Assembly: GCF_020622065.1 (NCBI RefSeq)
Contig: NZ_JAHRYQ010000001.1
Location: forward strand, 1,364,001-1,428,000
Length of the DNA stretch: 64,000 nt
Reading direction: 5' to 3'
Origin: Geothrix sp.
Lineage (GTDB): Bacteria; Acidobacteriota; Holophagae; Holophagales; Holophagaceae
In this document: positions 39,692 through 53,547 of the stretch, piece by piece
Numbering within the stretch: position 1 is the stretch's first letter
Layout: every line of letters begins with the position of its first letter
Notes under the pieces: generated by a model
Database searches by the model: none
Seen by the model: the letters and a program-made list of their open reading frames with translations, nothing else
What the model was told of the DNA's origin: nothing
Position numbers and translations under genes: made by a program

Positions 39692-39707
39692 TGGCTTGAG
39701 CATTGAT
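39692..39707 (+). promoter_or_regulatory. Candidate sigma-54 promoter within the AT-rich norB upstream region
   Basis: TGGCTTGAGCATTGAT matches the -24/-12 consensus TGGCAC-N5-TTGC(A/T) at the GG element and spacing, but has TTGA in place of TTGC at -12. It lies about 60 bases before the norB start. The surrounding 39660-39765 is far richer in A/T than its neighbours. The sequence also holds six TTGA/TCAA tetramers. None are spaced as TTGA-N6-TCAA, so no FNR/DNR box is supported. NO-reductase genes in other bacteria are often driven by sigma-54 with NorR; no NorR half-sites were seen. Confidence 0.3.
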
Positions 39708-39765
39708 GCTGAAGGGAGCACTGTTTGATTGTTTTTTAAAATTCTCAAGTAGAAAGGGATACGCC

Positions 39766-42054
39766 ATGAGCAGTGCCGTCACGGACTCGACTCCCCTCTC
39801 CCCCCGCTGGCGCCAGGCGGTCATCCTCGTGATGATCTTCGGCTTCAGCCTGCTGATCTGGATCACGGCCAAGACCTACACCGGCGCACCGCCCATCCCG
39901 GCCCGGGTGATGGGAACTTCGGGACAGGTGCTCTTCACGGGCGAGGAGATCAAGGACGGCCAGGAGGTCTTCCTGAAGTACGGCCTCATGGAGCACGGCA
40001 CCCTGTGGGGGCACGGGGCCTACCTGGGACCCGACTACACCGCCGAGTACCTGCACCGCCTGGCCGAAATCGGGCAGGACACCCTGGCCCGGGCGCAATA
40101 CGGCAGGGCCTTCCGGGATCTGAGCGAAGGCCAGGCCCTCGAGATCGGGGCCCTGCTGAAGAGCCAGATCAAGCAGAACCGCTACGATCCCGGGACGGAC
40201 GCCCTCCAGTTCACCGAGGTCGAGGCGACCTCCTACCGCCTCCAGGTGGAGGAATGGCGGACCTATTTCTCCGGCAGCAAGGCCGCGGTGGGCCTGCCCG
40301 CGAAGTTCATCCAGGATGAACGGGAACTGACCCACCTCACGGCCTACTTCGCCTGGGCCACCTGGGCCACCGTGGCGCCCCGCCCCGGGAAGGACTACTC
40401 CTACACGAACAACTGGCCCTACGAGCCCCTGGTGGGCAATGGCCCCACGGCTTCGACCTACCTGTGGAGCGCCCTGAGCCTCATCACCCTGCTGGGGGGC
40501 CTCGGCCTGATCCTCTTCATCTTCGGGAAGTTCAACTACCTGGGTTGGGGCGGTGCGGCGGGTTGGAAGCACGCGGAGGAGGGTCGGCTCCATGCCTGGA
40601 CCCTCACCCCCAGCCAGAAGGCTGTGGCCTTCTTCTTCGCCGTGGTGGCGGTGCTCTTCCTGGGCCAGGCCGCCCTGGGCGGCGTTCTGGCCCACTATCG
40701 CGTGGAGCCGGACGGGTTCTACGGGTTCGACCTGGCGCGCATCCTCCCCTACAACCTGGCCCGGACCTGGCACCTGCAGCTGGCCATCTTCTGGATCGCC
40801 ACGGCCTGGGTGGGCGGCGGTCTCTTCCTGGCGCCCCTGGTGGGCGGCTCGGAACCCAAGGGACAGAGGGCCGGCGTGCTGGTCCTGCTGGGCGCCCTGG
40901 CCATCGTGGTCTTCGGCAGCCTGTTCGGCGAGTTCGCGGGCATCAACGGCTATCTGGGCAGCCTGTGGTTCTGGCTGGGCCACCAGGGCAGCGAATACCT
41001 CGACCTGGGCCGTTTCTGGCAGCTGCTGCTGGCCGCCGGGCTCATTTTCTGGCTCTTCCTCATGTTCCGGGCCCTGCGCCCGGCCATGAAGGGCGGCGAG
41101 CAGGGGGAGCTGCCCTCGCTCTTCTTCTATGCAGCCATCGCCATCCCCCTCTTCTATGTTCCGGCCCTGTTCTACGGGCCCCGCACCAACTTCGCCGTCA
41201 TCGACAACTGGCGCTTCTGGATCATCCACCTCTGGGTGGAAGGCTTCTTCGAGCTCTTCGCCACGGTGCTGGTGGCGGTGATGTTCTACCAGCTGGGCCT
41301 CGTCACGGCGAAATCCGCCACGCGGCTGGTCTACCTCGACGCCATCCTCTACCTGGCCGGCGGCATCATGGGCATCGGCCACCACTGGTATTTCACGGGA
41401 CAGGGAACCCTGAACATGGGCCTCGCGGCCAGTTTCTCCGCCCTGGAGGTGGTGCCGCTCACGCTGCTGACGCTGGACGCCTGGGATTTCATCCGTCTGC
41501 AGGATCGGAACTGCGACGACTGCGGCCGGCCCCTGGCGGCGAAACAGCGCTGGGCCATCAAGTTCCTCATCGCCGTGGGCGTCTGGAACTTCGTGGGGGC
41601 GGGCGTCTTCGGGTTCCTCATCAACCTGCCCATCGTCTCCTACTTCGAGGTGGGCACCACGCTGACGGCCAACCATGGACACGCAGCCATGTTCGGCGTC
41701 TTCGGCATGCTGGCCCTGGCTGTCCTGGTGTTCTGCCTGCGGGAGCTCAAGAGCGACCGGGCCTGGGACAGGGTTGAGAAGTTCATCCGCATCGGCTTCT
41801 GGGGCCTCAATATCGGTCTGGGCCTGATGATGCTCCTCGATCTGTTCCCCGGTGGCGTGATCCAGCTCTGGGATGTGCTCTCGAATGGCTACTGGCATGC
41901 CCGGCGCCTCTCCTTCCTCATGGGGGGCACCTTCCATGCGCTGGAGTGGGTGCGCATCGTGGCCGACATGGTGTTCCTCCTCGCGGGAGCCCTGCCCATC
42001 GCCTACGGCACCCTGAGGCTGGTGTTCACCCCTGAACCGAAGGATGCGGCCTGA
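39766..42054 (+). CDS. norB: Quinol-dependent nitric oxide reductase (qNOR)
   Basis: Inner-membrane enzyme reducing two NO to nitrous oxide with quinol electrons; 762 residues, single-subunit length. Start at ATG 39766 with AAGGGA upstream. The N-terminal extension (about 40-230) after span 1 replaces the cytochrome c subunit NorC but has no CxxCH heme motif, as expected for the quinol type. About 13 further spans follow. Heme and non-heme iron ligands: HLWVEGFFELFATV, GIGHHWYFTG and NHGHAAMFGVFGM. It is followed by a cupin and an NDH-2 gene; I see no nitrite reductase, so NO detoxification is as likely as denitrification. Confidence 0.95.
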   Translation: MSSAVTDSTPLSPRWRQAVILVMIFGFSLLIWITAKTYTGAPPIPARVMGTSGQVLFTGEEIKDGQEVFLKYGLMEHGTLWGHGAYLGPDYTAEYLHRLAEIGQDTLARAQYGRAFRDLSEGQALEIGALLKSQIKQNRYDPGTDALQFTEVEATSYRLQVEEWRTYFSGSKAAVGLPAKFIQDERELTHLTAYFAWATWATVAPRPGKDYSYTNNWPYEPLVGNGPTASTYLWSALSLITLLGGLGLILFIFGKFNYLGWGGAAGWKHAEEGRLHAWTLTPSQKAVAFFFAVVAVLFLGQAALGGVLAHYRVEPDGFYGFDLARILPYNLARTWHLQLAIFWIATAWVGGGLFLAPLVGGSEPKGQRAGVLVLLGALAIVVFGSLFGEFAGINGYLGSLWFWLGHQGSEYLDLGRFWQLLLAAGLIFWLFLMFRALRPAMKGGEQGELPSLFFYAAIAIPLFYVPALFYGPRTNFAVIDNWRFWIIHLWVEGFFELFATVLVAVMFYQLGLVTAKSATRLVYLDAILYLAGGIMGIGHHWYFTGQGTLNMGLAASFSALEVVPLTLLTLDAWDFIRLQDRNCDDCGRPLAAKQRWAIKFLIAVGVWNFVGAGVFGFLINLPIVSYFEVGTTLTANHGHAAMFGVFGMLALAVLVFCLRELKSDRAWDRVEKFIRIGFWGLNIGLGLMMLLDLFPGGVIQLWDVLSNGYWHARRLSFLMGGTFHALEWVRIVADMVFLLAGALPIAYGTLRLVFTPEPKDAA

Positions 42055-48999: not shown

Positions 49000-50211
49000 A
49001 TGGCATTGACGGTGGATGGCATCTTTGCGCTCATGCCCGAACTCTTCCTGCCCGAGAAGGCGCAGGGCCTGACGGTGTCCGTCTACTACCAGGTGACCGG
49101 GGAAGGGGGTGGCGACTACACCTGCCTGATCGAGAACGGGGTCTTCTCCCTGAAGCGGGAACCCAAGCCCGATGCCACCTCCGTGGTGGTCATCGGCGCC
49201 GAGGACTGGATCGCCCTCAATGAGGGCAAGCTCGATCCCATGCAGGCCTTCATGACCGGCAAGCTCAAGGGCACCGGCGACCTGGGCCTGCTCCAGAAAT
49301 TCCCCAAGTTCTTCAAGAAGCCCCAGAAGCAGGGGGGCCCGGTGAAGCTGCTGAAGGAGCTGGTGCCTGCGCGCCTGGCCCTGGCGACCGGGGTCAAGGT
49401 GACCGTGGGGTCCGAGAGCTGGGGTGAGGGCGCGGAAGTGGCGGGCGACGAGGCCGCTGTCCGCGGTCTGGTCTGCGGCCTTTCTGATCCCGGCCCCGCG
49501 TTGCTGGGTGGCCAGATCCGGTTTTCCGGCGACATGGCGCTGCTCCGCAAGGCCTGGAAGACCTGGTCCGCCGAGCCGGAGATCACCTTCCCGGACACGC
49601 CCGGCGGCAAGGCTCTGGCCACCCTGAGGAAGCGATACAAGGGCGGGGCCAGCGGAACGCTGGAGGTGAAGGTGGATGGGGTGCCCTACCGCCTGGACTT
49701 CAGCCCCGAGGGGCTGGCGGTGCGGCCCGGCGAAGTGGAGGGCGGCGCGGCCCTGGGCATCTCCGATGCCGATTTCGCGGCCCTCAACGCGGGCAAGCTG
49801 AACCTGGTGGCCGCCCTGCTGGGCGGCGGCATCACGGTCAAAGGCGACATGAGCCAGGTGGCGGCCTACACCGCCCATTTCGAGGTGGATGTGAACCCCG
49901 CCCAGGGGCTTCTGGAATCCATGCCTGAGCGTTTCAATGCGGAAAAGGCCGGCGATCTCGAAGCTGTCGTGGGCTACCAGATCGAGGATACGGCTTACAC
50001 TTTGTTAATCCGAAACGGGACCTGCATGGTCTTCCCGCGCCTGCTGAAACCCTGTGATACGCTCCTCAAAGCCAAGGCTGACGATTTCATCGCCATGAGT
50101 ACCGGAACGCTGAATGCCCAGGAGGCTTTCATGACCGGCAAGATCCAGATCGAAGGCGATCCCCTGCTCATGCAGAAAGTGGCGAAGAGCTTCAAGCGGC
50201 CGGAGGCCTGA
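49000..50211 (+). CDS. Protein of about four tandem SCP2-like (sterol-carrier) modules
   Basis: 403 residues, no signal peptide, ATG 49000. At least two modules, residues 1-107 and 300-403, share the SCP2 layout: a beta stretch (VVVIGAEDWIALNEGKLDPMQAFMTGKLKGTGDLGLLQKFPKFF against ADDFIAMSTGTLNAQEAFMTGKIQIEGDPLLMQKVAKSF). The same scheme with gaps appears at about 196-298 (DADFAALNAGKLNLVAALLGGGITVKGDM). The segment 112-195 is a more degenerate third or fourth copy. SCP2 domains bind lipids or acyl-CoA in a hydrophobic tunnel. A four-module protein is unusual and no function is known to me. The last codon is followed at once by the ribosome site of a tiny gene. Confidence 0.75.
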   Translation: MALTVDGIFALMPELFLPEKAQGLTVSVYYQVTGEGGGDYTCLIENGVFSLKREPKPDATSVVVIGAEDWIALNEGKLDPMQAFMTGKLKGTGDLGLLQKFPKFFKKPQKQGGPVKLLKELVPARLALATGVKVTVGSESWGEGAEVAGDEAAVRGLVCGLSDPGPALLGGQIRFSGDMALLRKAWKTWSAEPEITFPDTPGGKALATLRKRYKGGASGTLEVKVDGVPYRLDFSPEGLAVRPGEVEGGAALGISDADFAALNAGKLNLVAALLGGGITVKGDMSQVAAYTAHFEVDVNPAQGLLESMPERFNAEKAGDLEAVVGYQIEDTAYTLLIRNGTCMVFPRLLKPCDTLLKAKADDFIAMSTGTLNAQEAFMTGKIQIEGDPLLMQKVAKSFKRPEA

Positions 50212-50221
50212 GGAGGGGCAG

Positions 50222-50467
50222 GTGAGCAGGGGGGGGGACCACCACAAGGGCCACGAAGCCCGGAAGCCACTCCCGGCAGGGGATGGCGTGGTGCGCTCCA
50301 CCAAGCTGATCCCCACCCTGATGAAGCCCGTTGCGGATTTTCCCGAACCCCAGCTGGCGTGCGGCCAGACCCACGGTCCAGCTCTGGGCCAGACCATGGA
50401 TCTGCCCTGTTCGGGCCGGTGCGGGCACTGCGACTGCCATCCCTGCCGGCTGCACGGGCCGATCTGA
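50222..50467 (+). CDS. Small cysteine-rich protein, unknown function
   Basis: 81 residues from GTG 50222. Support for it being real: AGGAGG (50211-50216) 5 bases ahead of the start and overlapping the preceding stop; third codon positions almost all G or C as in neighbouring genes; and no other supported gene fills this gap. The C-terminal segment CSGRCGHCDCHPC has five cysteines spaced C-x3-C-x2-C-x-C-x2-C, with extra histidines; it could bind a metal ion or iron-sulfur cluster. The N-terminal half (HHKGHEARKP) is basic and histidine-containing. Likely translationally coupled to the SCP2-module gene. I recognise no family. Confidence 0.55.
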   Translation: MSRGGDHHKGHEARKPLPAGDGVVRSTKLIPTLMKPVADFPEPQLACGQTHGPALGQTMDLPCSGRCGHCDCHPCRLHGPI

Positions 50468-50482: not shown

Positions 50483-51241
50483 TCAGTCGGCGCCTTCCCA
50501 CAGCTCCCGCAAGCGCTGGTAGCCCGCCCGGCTCACCGGCAGGCGGGTGCCGTCCCGCAGGATGGCATCACGGTGCTCCTTGGTGTCCTGTTCGACCCGG
50601 ACAAGGCGGTCGAGGTTCAAGATGTAACTGCGGTGGATGCGGATGAAACGGCTTGAATCGAGTTGCGATTCCAGGTGGGCCAGGGTCTGCTGCTTGAGCA
50701 GGTTCTTGCCCTCCGTACGCAGCAGGACATAGTCGTCCTGGGCCTGCACCCAATCGAGCCGGTCGAGGTGGACCACGGTGACCTTGGGGCCATCCTTCAC
50801 CACGATGCGCTCCAGGGGCTTCCCCTGACGGGCGGCGGCGGCGAGCTCGGACGCGGGTGGCGGCGGCGCGGCCGGCTGGGCCGCCTGCAGGGCTCGGGCC
50901 TTGACGAGGGCCGCATCGAACCGTTCCTTCGAGAAGGGTTTCAGGAGGTAGTCCACGGCGTGGGCCTCGAAGGCCCGGAGGGCGTGCTGGTCGTAGGCGG
51001 TCACGAAGACCACGGCGGGCCGCCTGCCTTCGGCCTCCAGGAGCTCCAGCACCTCGAAGCCGTCCAGCTTGGGCATCTGGATGTCCAGAAAGATCAGATC
51101 GGGCTGATGCTGGGCCGCGGCCTTCAGGGCCTCGAAGCCGTTGGCGCATTCTGCCGCCACCTCCACATCCGGGTGGGCCACCAGGTGCTCGCGCACCACG
51201 GCGCGGGCCAGATCCTCGTCGTCGATGATCAGGGCTTTCAT
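50483..51241 (-). CDS. LytTR-family response regulator
   Basis: Transcription factor, 252 residues. The receiver domain has acidic residues D7/D8, phospho-acceptor Asp53 (FLDIQMPKLDGFE), Thr in VTAYD and Lys in LLKPFS. A Pro/Ala linker follows (about 128-140), then a LytTR DNA-binding domain from about 148 (RIVVKDGPKVTVVHLDRLDWVQAQDDYV). The conserved SRFIRIHRSYILNLDRL closes the domain. It overlaps the kinase gene by four bases and is last in the five-gene operon. LytTR targets are direct repeats separated by about 12 bases; none were searched for systematically. Confidence 0.94.
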   Translation of the reverse strand: MKALIIDDEDLARAVVREHLVAHPDVEVAAECANGFEALKAAAQHQPDLIFLDIQMPKLDGFEVLELLEAEGRRPAVVFVTAYDQHALRAFEAHAVDYLLKPFSKERFDAALVKARALQAAQPAAPPPPASELAAAARQGKPLERIVVKDGPKVTVVHLDRLDWVQAQDDYVLLRTEGKNLLKQQTLAHLESQLDSSRFIRIHRSYILNLDRLVRVEQDTKEHRDAILRDGTRLPVSRAGYQRLRELWEGAD

Positions 51242-52302
51242 GGTTCGGTCTCCAGGGGGAATACCAGGGTCACGCGATGGAGGGCCTCCTGCACGCCGGC
51301 CTCGAAGCGGGCGCGGCTGCCGAAGCGGCCCAACAACCGCTGGCGGACCTGCCGCAGGCCGATGCCCAGGCCCTGGGGGGTCGGGGCATCACCATCCATC
51401 GGGTTTTCCACGCGCAGGATCACATGGCCTTCGGTGACCTCCGCGCTGAGGGACAGGGTGCCGCCTTCCGGCAGCGCCGCGATGCCGTGTTTGATGGCAT
51501 TCTCCACCAGCGGCTGCAGCAACAGGGTCGGGAGCAGGGCGGGTTCGGCCTCTGGATCCACGGCCCAGGCCAGCTGCAGGCGGCTGCCGAAGCGGATCTG
51601 CTCGATGGCCAGGTAGGCCCGCGCAAGATCGAGTTCCTCCCTCAGCGGCACCAGGCGGCGCTCGCCCAGACCGAGGCTGCGGCGGAGGAAATCCGACAGG
51701 AGGACGCACATCTCCCGCGCCCGGGCCGGGTCCACGGCGGTGAGCGCCGACAGGGAGTTCAGGCTGTTGAACAGGAAGTGGGGGTTCAGCTGGGCGCGCA
51801 GGGCCTTCAGCTCGGACTCCTGGGCCAGCAGCTGCAGCTCGGCACCCTTCCGCTCGGCCTCGAGGGCCCGGTCCTGGGCCAGCATCAGGTAGCTCAGCGC
51901 GACCGAGGCGAGGTAGAGCAGGATGCCCAGGCCCGTGAGCACGGGCAGGGCCGTGTTCACGCGCTGGGGCAGGGCGCCCAGCCCTGGTATCCAGGCCAGC
52001 ATCCGGGCGAGCATCCAGGCGAGGCCGGCCCACAGGCCGCCCATGAGCACGGCCGCCATGCCCCAGGCCGCCCCGTGCGCGCCGAGCCCCTCGACCGTGC
52101 GACCCAGGGGCAGGGCCCGGCAGAGGAACCAGGCCGACAGGAACAGGAAGGCCGCCAGGAGGCAGAGGGGCAGGGCGAGGGAGCCCGCCTCGGCCCAGCT
52201 CCAGCCCTGGCTCCGGGCGATGCCCGTGAGCAGCAGCGCGATGGGGGCCCATCCCAGAAGGTAGGCCCCCAACCGGGCCCGGCTGGCCAGGAGCGGGTGC
52301 AT
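51238..52302 (-). CDS. LytS-type sensor histidine kinase
   Basis: 354 residues; about four membrane spans in the first 155 residues, then a coiled coil and the His_kinase domain of the LytS/YehU group with phospho-His in LNPHFLFNSLNSLSALT. The ATPase N box is LLQPLVENAIKHGI; GQ-box-like GLGIGLRQVRQRL is present. No extracytoplasmic domain is visible, so it probably senses a signal within the membrane or via its membrane-protein neighbours. It overlaps its predecessor by one base and its successor by four. It is the cognate partner of the regulator at 50483. Confidence 0.93.
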   Translation of the reverse strand: MHPLLASRARLGAYLLGWAPIALLLTGIARSQGWSWAEAGSLALPLCLLAAFLFLSAWFLCRALPLGRTVEGLGAHGAAWGMAAVLMGGLWAGLAWMLARMLAWIPGLGALPQRVNTALPVLTGLGILLYLASVALSYLMLAQDRALEAERKGAELQLLAQESELKALRAQLNPHFLFNSLNSLSALTAVDPARAREMCVLLSDFLRRSLGLGERRLVPLREELDLARAYLAIEQIRFGSRLQLAWAVDPEAEPALLPTLLLQPLVENAIKHGIAALPEGGTLSLSAEVTEGHVILRVENPMDGDAPTPQGLGIGLRQVRQRLLGRFGSRARFEAGVQEALHRVTLVFPLETEP

Positions 52303-53012
52303 CAGCTCTTGACCTCGGTGCCGCCGAAGAGGATGAGACCCGTGACCACCAGGCGGGGACGGCCTTCCACAGGACCGGGGCCATGGTGGGTGTTGTCGTT
52401 CAGGGCTCCGGCCACGGCCGTGGCGCGGTTGGCGATCTCCCAGCCATCGGGCACGCGGATCTCCCCGCCCCCGAAAAGCACGAAAACATCGATGCGGGCC
52501 TGGCCGTTTTCGAGGGCCGCCTGCCGGAGATCCACCTCATAGCCCCCGAAGATGGCCGTCAGCTCGCCGCCCTTGAAGGCCTGGGTGAGGACGCGCCGCT
52601 TGAACCCCCCGAAGATGGCCGTGCCCTGGAGGAAGTCCTCGGAGCGGGCCAGCTCGGGTGGCACGCCGCGGTTCTGCTTGAGCGCCTTGACTACAATGAG
52701 GATGCCCACGCCCACCACCAGCATGGGCGCCAGGGCCTCGGCCAGATGGCCCCGGGCGAAGGTGAAGAGCAGGAGGAAGGCGCCGCCGAGCACGAGGAAC
52801 CAGCCGCCCATGCCGCCGCCGCTGCCCTCCTGACGGATCTTGGCGACGCCCATGGCGACCAGCACCAGGGGCCAGAGCTTGAAGATCGTGTGGGCCTGGA
52901 TGAGGCCGAGGTTGTCCAGGGTGAGGACGAGGCCCGCCACGATGATGGCCACGCCCACCACCAGCTTGGGGCTGAAGGGGCTGGGGGCCTTGGCGTCGTC
53001 GGGGGCAGTCAT
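52302..53012 (-). CDS. LiaF-like membrane protein
   Basis: 236 residues. Two or three spans with the LiaF/DUF5668-type motif (LDNLGLIQAHTIFKLWPLVLVAMGV; LWP near residue 45) and a further span at about 72-92. The soluble C-terminal half is a beta-helical fold with repeated IFGG turns (GTAIFGGFKRRV, LTAIFGGYEVDL, VFVLFGGGEIRVP, ILFGGTEV), as in the LiaF C-terminal domain. LiaF restrains the LiaRS cell-envelope stress system in Firmicutes; the gene order here suggests a similar control of the LytS-type kinase. That is an inference. Confidence 0.85.
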   Translation of the reverse strand: MTAPDDAKAPSPFSPKLVVGVAIIVAGLVLTLDNLGLIQAHTIFKLWPLVLVAMGVAKIRQEGSGGGMGGWFLVLGGAFLLLFTFARGHLAEALAPMLVVGVGILIVVKALKQNRGVPPELARSEDFLQGTAIFGGFKRRVLTQAFKGGELTAIFGGYEVDLRQAALENGQARIDVFVLFGGGEIRVPDGWEIANRATAVAGALNDNTHHGPGPVEGRPRLVVTGLILFGGTEVKS

Positions 53013-53437
53013 GGCTTCACCTGTTCAGAGTCGGTTTCAGGATCACAGGAAACGGCGGGGCTTGGCGATGGGGGGATATCCTTGCTTTTCCGCTCCGGCT
53101 TGGGCTGGGGGAAGATGGCCCGAAGGGTGATGATCAGGCCGCCCCAGACCAGGAAGATGGGCCACCAGCGCTCCAGCAGGCCCCAGGGGCCGAACTGGGA
53201 GATGAAGCCCGCGACGGAGAAGCACAGCCAGACATGCCCCCGGAGGCTGAGCGGCCCGTCCTGGACCAGCCGGGCGAGGCCGAGGGCGGCCAGCACCAGC
53301 GGCCACCAGGTCAGCAGGTGCCAGGCGTCGTACCAGCGGAGGCTGTCCGCCGTGAGGATGAGACCCAGGGCAATGACGGCCAGGCCGATGACGAGTTTAG
53401 TCGAGAAGAGGGGGGGGCGCGTGTCCTGGGCGTTCAT
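53009..53437 (-). CDS. Small LiaF-like membrane protein (transmembrane part only)
   Basis: 142 residues from ATG 53437, which has AGGAA upstream. It carries the same span-plus-LWWP pattern as the previous gene's N-terminus: LVIGLAVIALGLILTADSLRWYDAWHLLTWWPLVLAALGLARL. A second pair of spans (HVWLCFSVAGFISQF, WPIFLVWGGLIITLRAIF) follows and a charged tail ends the protein. It lacks the beta-helical domain. It overlaps its neighbours by four bases on both sides. It may be a paralogue that heterodimerises with the LiaF-like protein (inference). Confidence 0.78.
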   Translation of the reverse strand: MNAQDTRPPLFSTKLVIGLAVIALGLILTADSLRWYDAWHLLTWWPLVLAALGLARLVQDGPLSLRGHVWLCFSVAGFISQFGPWGLLERWWPIFLVWGGLIITLRAIFPQPKPERKSKDIPPSPSPAVSCDPETDSEQVKP

Positions 53438-53547
53438 GAGCGGTGTTCCTTTCTGCCGGATCCAAAGGGGACGACGAAGGCCAGCGTGGGGAGCCACAAC
53501 GCCAGCCACCACCAGGGGCTGTCGAGGAACCATCCCGCGTGGATCAT
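53434..53547 (-). CDS. 37-residue membrane peptide at the head of the LytS/LytTR operon
   Basis: MIHAGWFLDSPWWWLALWLP is followed by TLAFVVPFGSGRKEHRS. GGGAGGAAGGC lies just before the ATG and its stop overlaps the next start in the form ATGA, the same spacing used by all genes of the operon. One hydrophobic segment at about residues 11-28, rich in tryptophan, ends with a basic tail; this predicts a single-span or interfacial peptide with the C-terminus in the cytoplasm. No family is recognised. It is too short to be supported by composition alone; coupling and the ribosome site are the evidence. Confidence 0.6.
   Translation of the reverse strand: MIHAGWFLDSPWWWLALWLPTLAFVVPFGSGRKEHRS

Follow-up and report, generated by a model that had tools for sequence, protein, structure and literature searches.

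The small gene and its surroundings

The window, that is, the whole stretch of 64,000 nucleotides that we have analyzed, contains a small open reading frame (ORF) on the + strand (50222..50467), which has 81 codons with a GTG start and would code for a cysteine-rich protein of 81 amino acids. As originally predicted, it is found downstream of a gene with sterol carrier protein 2 (SCP2) modules. This gene (49000..50211, + strand) codes for 403 amino acids and matches PF02036 in three stretches (E value 2.2e-38); the small gene starts 10 bases 3' of its stop. On the other side, a convergent gene coding for a LytTR response regulator ends at 50483, 15 bases beyond the small gene, and the gap up to it is otherwise empty, again in agreement with the prediction. 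The same is true of the GC-rich third codon positions: The GC content is 0.71, 0.55, and 0.82 at codon positions 1, 2, and 3. The small ORF by itself is no evidence of a gene, because 54 ORFs of at least 60 amino acids overlap this stretch of 8.5 kb.

Two conserved blocks are found in the protein. One of them is close to the C-terminus (residues 63–77, 50408..50452, + strand), with the motif C-x3-C-G-x-C-x2-H-P-C-x-L. The second one (residues 23–33, 50288..50320, + strand) reads VVRSTKLIPTL, with VVRxAKxIPxM as consensus in the relatives described below.

Past the LytTR gene, there is a gene for a LytS-type histidine kinase, followed by two genes for LiaF-like membrane proteins. These four genes form a single run on the − strand (50483..53533), and the same order appears in most of the 31 loci from named records discussed below. 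Farther away, the window contains a nitric oxide reductase NorB-like gene (39703..42054, + strand), which matches PF22085 and PF00115. An RNA element was also considered and discarded, since the lone Rfam match is below threshold (E 0.34, with a score of 17.3 bits and a gathering score of 75).

The AGGAGG sequence highlighted in the original prediction is indeed present (50211..50216, + strand), 5 bases before the GTG and overlapping the SCP2 stop codon. It is not conserved in relatives: The window is the only one with AGGAGG among the 24 members of the family that we have compared, and 10 of them lack any Shine-Dalgarno-like match of at least 4 bases to the consensus used. The position of the start codon is much more regular: Relative to the SCP2 stop, it falls between −1 and +10 bases in 23 members and at +58 in the remaining one. 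As the Shine-Dalgarno-like matches are erratic, coupling to SCP2 translation appears likelier than an independent strong site. The small gene is probably on the same message as the SCP2 gene and translationally coupled to it.

Distribution of the small gene

A search with the single sequence gives matches in 20 of 41 genomes, including that of the window, and all 20 correspond to the same genus. When loci are oriented by the SCP2 gene, the gene for the small protein is seen to follow the triple-SCP2 gene directly in 24 of the 25 genus genomes inspected. With a profile, 45 of 47 genus genomes are found to contain it; 24 of these 47 supplied the rows of the profile, so the independent finds are 21 of the other 23. 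The original prediction suggested a profile search among Holophagaceae. Relatives were found in the genus itself, but not in any of 30 genomes from other genera of the family. It also named what would refute it, a lack of homologues in relatives or of conservation in the cysteines. The small gene passes this test, because its relatives do have homologues and four of the cysteines are conserved.

We have also confirmed 31 loci in named records, among 83 stretches matching the peptide pattern. Their titles mention Geothrix, Holophagaceae, or Acidobacteria, with G. fermentans and G. limicola among the species whose records contain the small gene. These loci overlap with the genus genomes inspected and should not be counted as further independent evidence. 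The SCP2 gene is directly upstream of the small gene in all 31 loci. In 26 of them, the LytTR gene is also an adjacent neighbor, at a distance of up to about 200 bases. In two others (L109 and L116) it is found about 3 kb away from the small gene, and the SCP2 gene is still adjacent. It is not found in the available stretches of the last three, two of which (L087 and L091) end within about 150 bases and the third (L115) at about 2 kb. Two copies of the small gene are seen in a draft genome with 4% contamination (G055, contigs C89 and C68), and the named assembly JANYLR has two small-gene loci (L087 and L093).

The two genus genomes missed by the profile are G052, whose assembly is 58% complete, and G013, 88% complete. 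In G013, the SCP2 stop and the LytTR match are only 10 bases apart, with no small gene between them, and the profile finds no match elsewhere in this 88% complete assembly. The small gene is therefore dispensable there. A tree of SCP2 sequences places G013 inside the genus, with moderate support (89/87), in a tree where strongly supported inner branches are only 6 of 26. Its absence is therefore probably a loss, and the genus probably acquired the small gene at its base.

In the other genera of the family, the SCP2 gene was searched for in 20 of the 30 genomes. Eight of them have a match, four of them full-length, with 68–70% identity; these four orthologues belong to genera g11 and g13. No ORF of at least 50 amino acids with the motif is found in the 900 bases behind SCP2, either in the eight loci of the family or in a ninth one from another family. 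One locus from another genus of the family (L078, G073:C1:6464-8401) has two SCP2 matches in tandem.

At the level of the phylum, 25 of 297 sampled genomes have matches, 21 of them inside the genus and four outside (best E outside 5.8e-4). We consider these four as chance matches, as the full motif is missing in all of them. One is in a frame which has an internal stop and is antisense to a long ORF (G352), another overlaps a long ORF in a different frame (G206), and a third is in a frame of 34 codons at a contig end, also antisense to a long ORF (G282). The last one has its own frame of 132 codons, overlapping other frames (G114). Among viral contigs, two stretches fit the peptide pattern and neither is confirmed, while plasmids contain no match to the window protein at E values up to 0.1. 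Phages, queried with a relative (L094) instead of the window protein, give six records, all with E 0.9 or worse.

Conservation and selection

The small protein has a length of about 65–87 amino acids in different members. Its N-terminal part is proline-rich and mostly basic, and visual inspection reveals neither a signal peptide nor a membrane stretch. In the VVRxAKxIPxM block, R25 and I30 are each kept by 90% or more of 32 rows; the three most divergent members have a degenerate version of this block. The most characteristic feature is the C-terminal block. C63, C67, G68, C70, P74, C75, and L77 are invariant in the 24 members, as is the start, and the family motif may be written as C-x3-C-G-x-C-x2-[H/N]-P-C-x-L. 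An invariant set of Cys/His ligands, as would be expected in a small metal-binding protein, is found in the four cysteines (24 of 24) together with H73 (23 of 24). The predicted pattern of five cysteines, C63-x3-C67-x2-C70-x-C72-x2-C75, is present in the window, but it holds for the family only in part: Four cysteines are invariant, while C72 is kept in 4 of 24 members. A sixth cysteine of the window protein, C47, was absent from the prediction. The total number of cysteines varies from 4 to 7 per member.

The C, G, and L columns of the block show synonymous codon variation among the 24 members. For all pairs of members, pS is 0.55 and pN is 0.188 in the block, which gives a pN/pS ratio of 0.34. 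If the same bases are read in the other two + frames, the ratios are 1.52 and 1.61, and the antisense frames give 1.87, 0.53, and 1.10. All these ratios are based on proportions without correction, and saturation is close in the all-pair values, which makes close pairs better evidence. In 18 close pairs, pN/pS is 0.014 for the C-terminal block, 0.49 for the part which precedes it, and 0.11 for SCP2; these pairs are not independent, as six members account for 15 of the 18, and their ratios correspond to the + frame only. Purifying selection acts on the C-terminal block at the level of the protein. In the preceding part, the all-pair pN/pS is 0.91, so most of the small protein is weakly constrained.

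The ORF at 50222–50467 is, then, a real protein gene, restricted to one genus. The original prediction of a gene is borne out both by the orthologues (24 of 25 genomes inspected, 45 of 47 by profile) and by selection, which is strongest in the + frame.

Possible function and comparison with known proteins

Our preferred interpretation, which we propose tentatively and with somewhat less than even confidence, is that the gene codes for a lineage-specific small cytoplasmic metal-binding protein, an accessory or regulatory subunit translationally coupled to the triple-SCP2 protein. This cytoplasmic protein of about 65–87 amino acids would probably be made together with the SCP2 protein through such coupling. 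Its proline-rich, basic N-terminal part is probably disordered, and the central VVRxAKxIPxM block may be a docking peptide. The C-terminal C-x3-C-G-x-C-x2-H-P-C block would hold one metal site, giving the tail a fold, and the partner would most likely be the triple-SCP2 lipid- or acyl-binding protein. We infer coupling, disorder, and docking from the features described above. As for the metal, either zinc or Fe-S may be bound by the four-cysteine block. A small metal site fits best, because the four cysteines are closely spaced with H-P before the last one, and zinc is favored over 4Fe-4S because a stretch of 13 residues holds all four of them and nothing ferredoxin-like is matched.

The proposed partnership with SCP2 is based on genome position. 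In its favor, adjacency to SCP2 outlasts adjacency to LytTR, as seen in L109 and L116. Several facts count against the partnership or against our interpretation as a whole: Conserved synteny within a single genus is due in part to simple inheritance, SCP2 orthologues without the small gene exist in g11, g13, and the genus member G013, which speaks against a strict need for it, evolution is fast outside the block (the 0.91 ratio given above), and no homologue whose metal site is known was found in the PDB.

Other explanations should be considered. The small protein might be a regulator not tied to SCP2, a zinc knuckle which binds nucleic acids or proteins and merely shares the SCP2 transcript. 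We find this possible, if rather doubtful. The proline-rich and mostly basic N-terminal part would suit such a regulator, and so would the SCP2 orthologues which lack the small gene, as in G013; nevertheless, all 31 loci have SCP2 next to the small gene, although the LytTR neighbor is not always there. It is unlikely that we are dealing with a metal-free thiol-disulfide redox peptide, whose central C-G-H-C and outer cysteines would make it a small dithiol carrier or redox switch. Protein disulfide isomerases have CGHC in their active site, this tetrapeptide is found in 19 of 24 members and in 32 of the 32 rows of A2, and four invariant cysteines, instead of two, would permit two disulfides. 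However, the other five of the 24 members have CGRC or CGQC, there is no Pfam match of any kind, and the invariant outer cysteines and H-P-C suit a metal site at least as well.

We give very little weight to a precursor of a modified cysteine-rich peptide, with an N-terminal leader and the C-terminal block as modified core. The general layout would agree with it: two blocks, a variable linker, and a conserved C-terminal cysteine block. On the other hand, the cores of modified peptides usually vary more than their leaders, and here it is the C-terminal block that shows the strongest constraint in the protein. Moreover, no peptide-modifying enzyme or exporter appears in Pfam scans of 21 picked ORFs between 35 and 64 kb, a subset of those in that region, of which seven, including the small ORF, are unmatched at the cut-offs. 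Finally, an open frame without a product, due to chance, is extremely improbable. It is true that such GC-rich DNA as this contains many ORFs of similar size and that one antisense frame is likewise open in 22 of 24 members. Against this, orthologues exist in 45 of 47 genus genomes, and the block has an all-pair ratio of 0.34 in the + frame versus 0.53–1.87 in the other five, with 0.014 in the + frame of close pairs.

An extension of our preferred interpretation, the small metal-binding SCP2 subunit, would be that of a new orphan family which arose directly behind an older SCP2 gene, at the base of the genus, and became a metal- or redox-sensing subunit which gates lipid or acyl-CoA binding by the triple-SCP2 protein. 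We regard this extension as speculative and quite improbable. In any case, we have a small protein family which the curated libraries searched do not recognize, with selection at the protein level, a probable gain, and a probable loss, in Geothrix, a genus known for iron reduction. If the link to SCP2 is real, it would represent a regulatory partner for multi-SCP2 proteins of bacteria. Otherwise, it would be an ordinary lineage-specific small cysteine protein, a common kind.

We have found no literature on Geothrix SCP2, small cysteine-rich proteins, or small open reading frames, and a wider search gave nothing on the small gene among the matches listed. The libraries also agree with the original statement that no family is recognized. 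None of the 24 members matches any Pfam family, the PDB gives no hits at E ≤ 10 with either the whole profile or the motif profile, and NCBIfam gives two chance-level matches, each from a single member. One of the 24 members matches the PP0621 family (NF041023), a small bacterial protein which contains cysteines, with E 0.075, which does not amount to membership. With 32 members as queries, a short stretch with cysteines resembles two phage families of unknown function, phrog_2451 and phrog_25330 (best E 0.00055 and 0.0032). For phrog_2451, the match covers 17–21 residues in the three members viewed in detail, and E is at most 0.1 for 9 of the 32 members; the other 23, including that of the window, fall short. 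We interpret it as a match in cysteine composition: A search of the window's genome with this model fails to return the small gene even at E 1, and 10 of 14 control genomes do give matches.

The first three invariant cysteines share the C-x3-C-x2-C spacing of the radical-SAM motif, CxxxCxxC. We have discarded this superfamily: A protein of 65–87 amino acids is too small for the domain, a fourth invariant cysteine follows, and no Pfam match is found in the 24 members. Known zinc-ribbon or ferredoxin families were also discarded, as there is no curated profile match (Pfam, 0 of 24) and no solved homologue in the PDB. While the C-x3-C-x2-C-x4-C spacing of the small protein matches no Pfam model or PDB chain, it does resemble zinc-knuckle and zinc-ribbon proteins, small proteins with four closely spaced Cys/His ligands, in these ligands, in its small size, and in its probable location in the cytosol.
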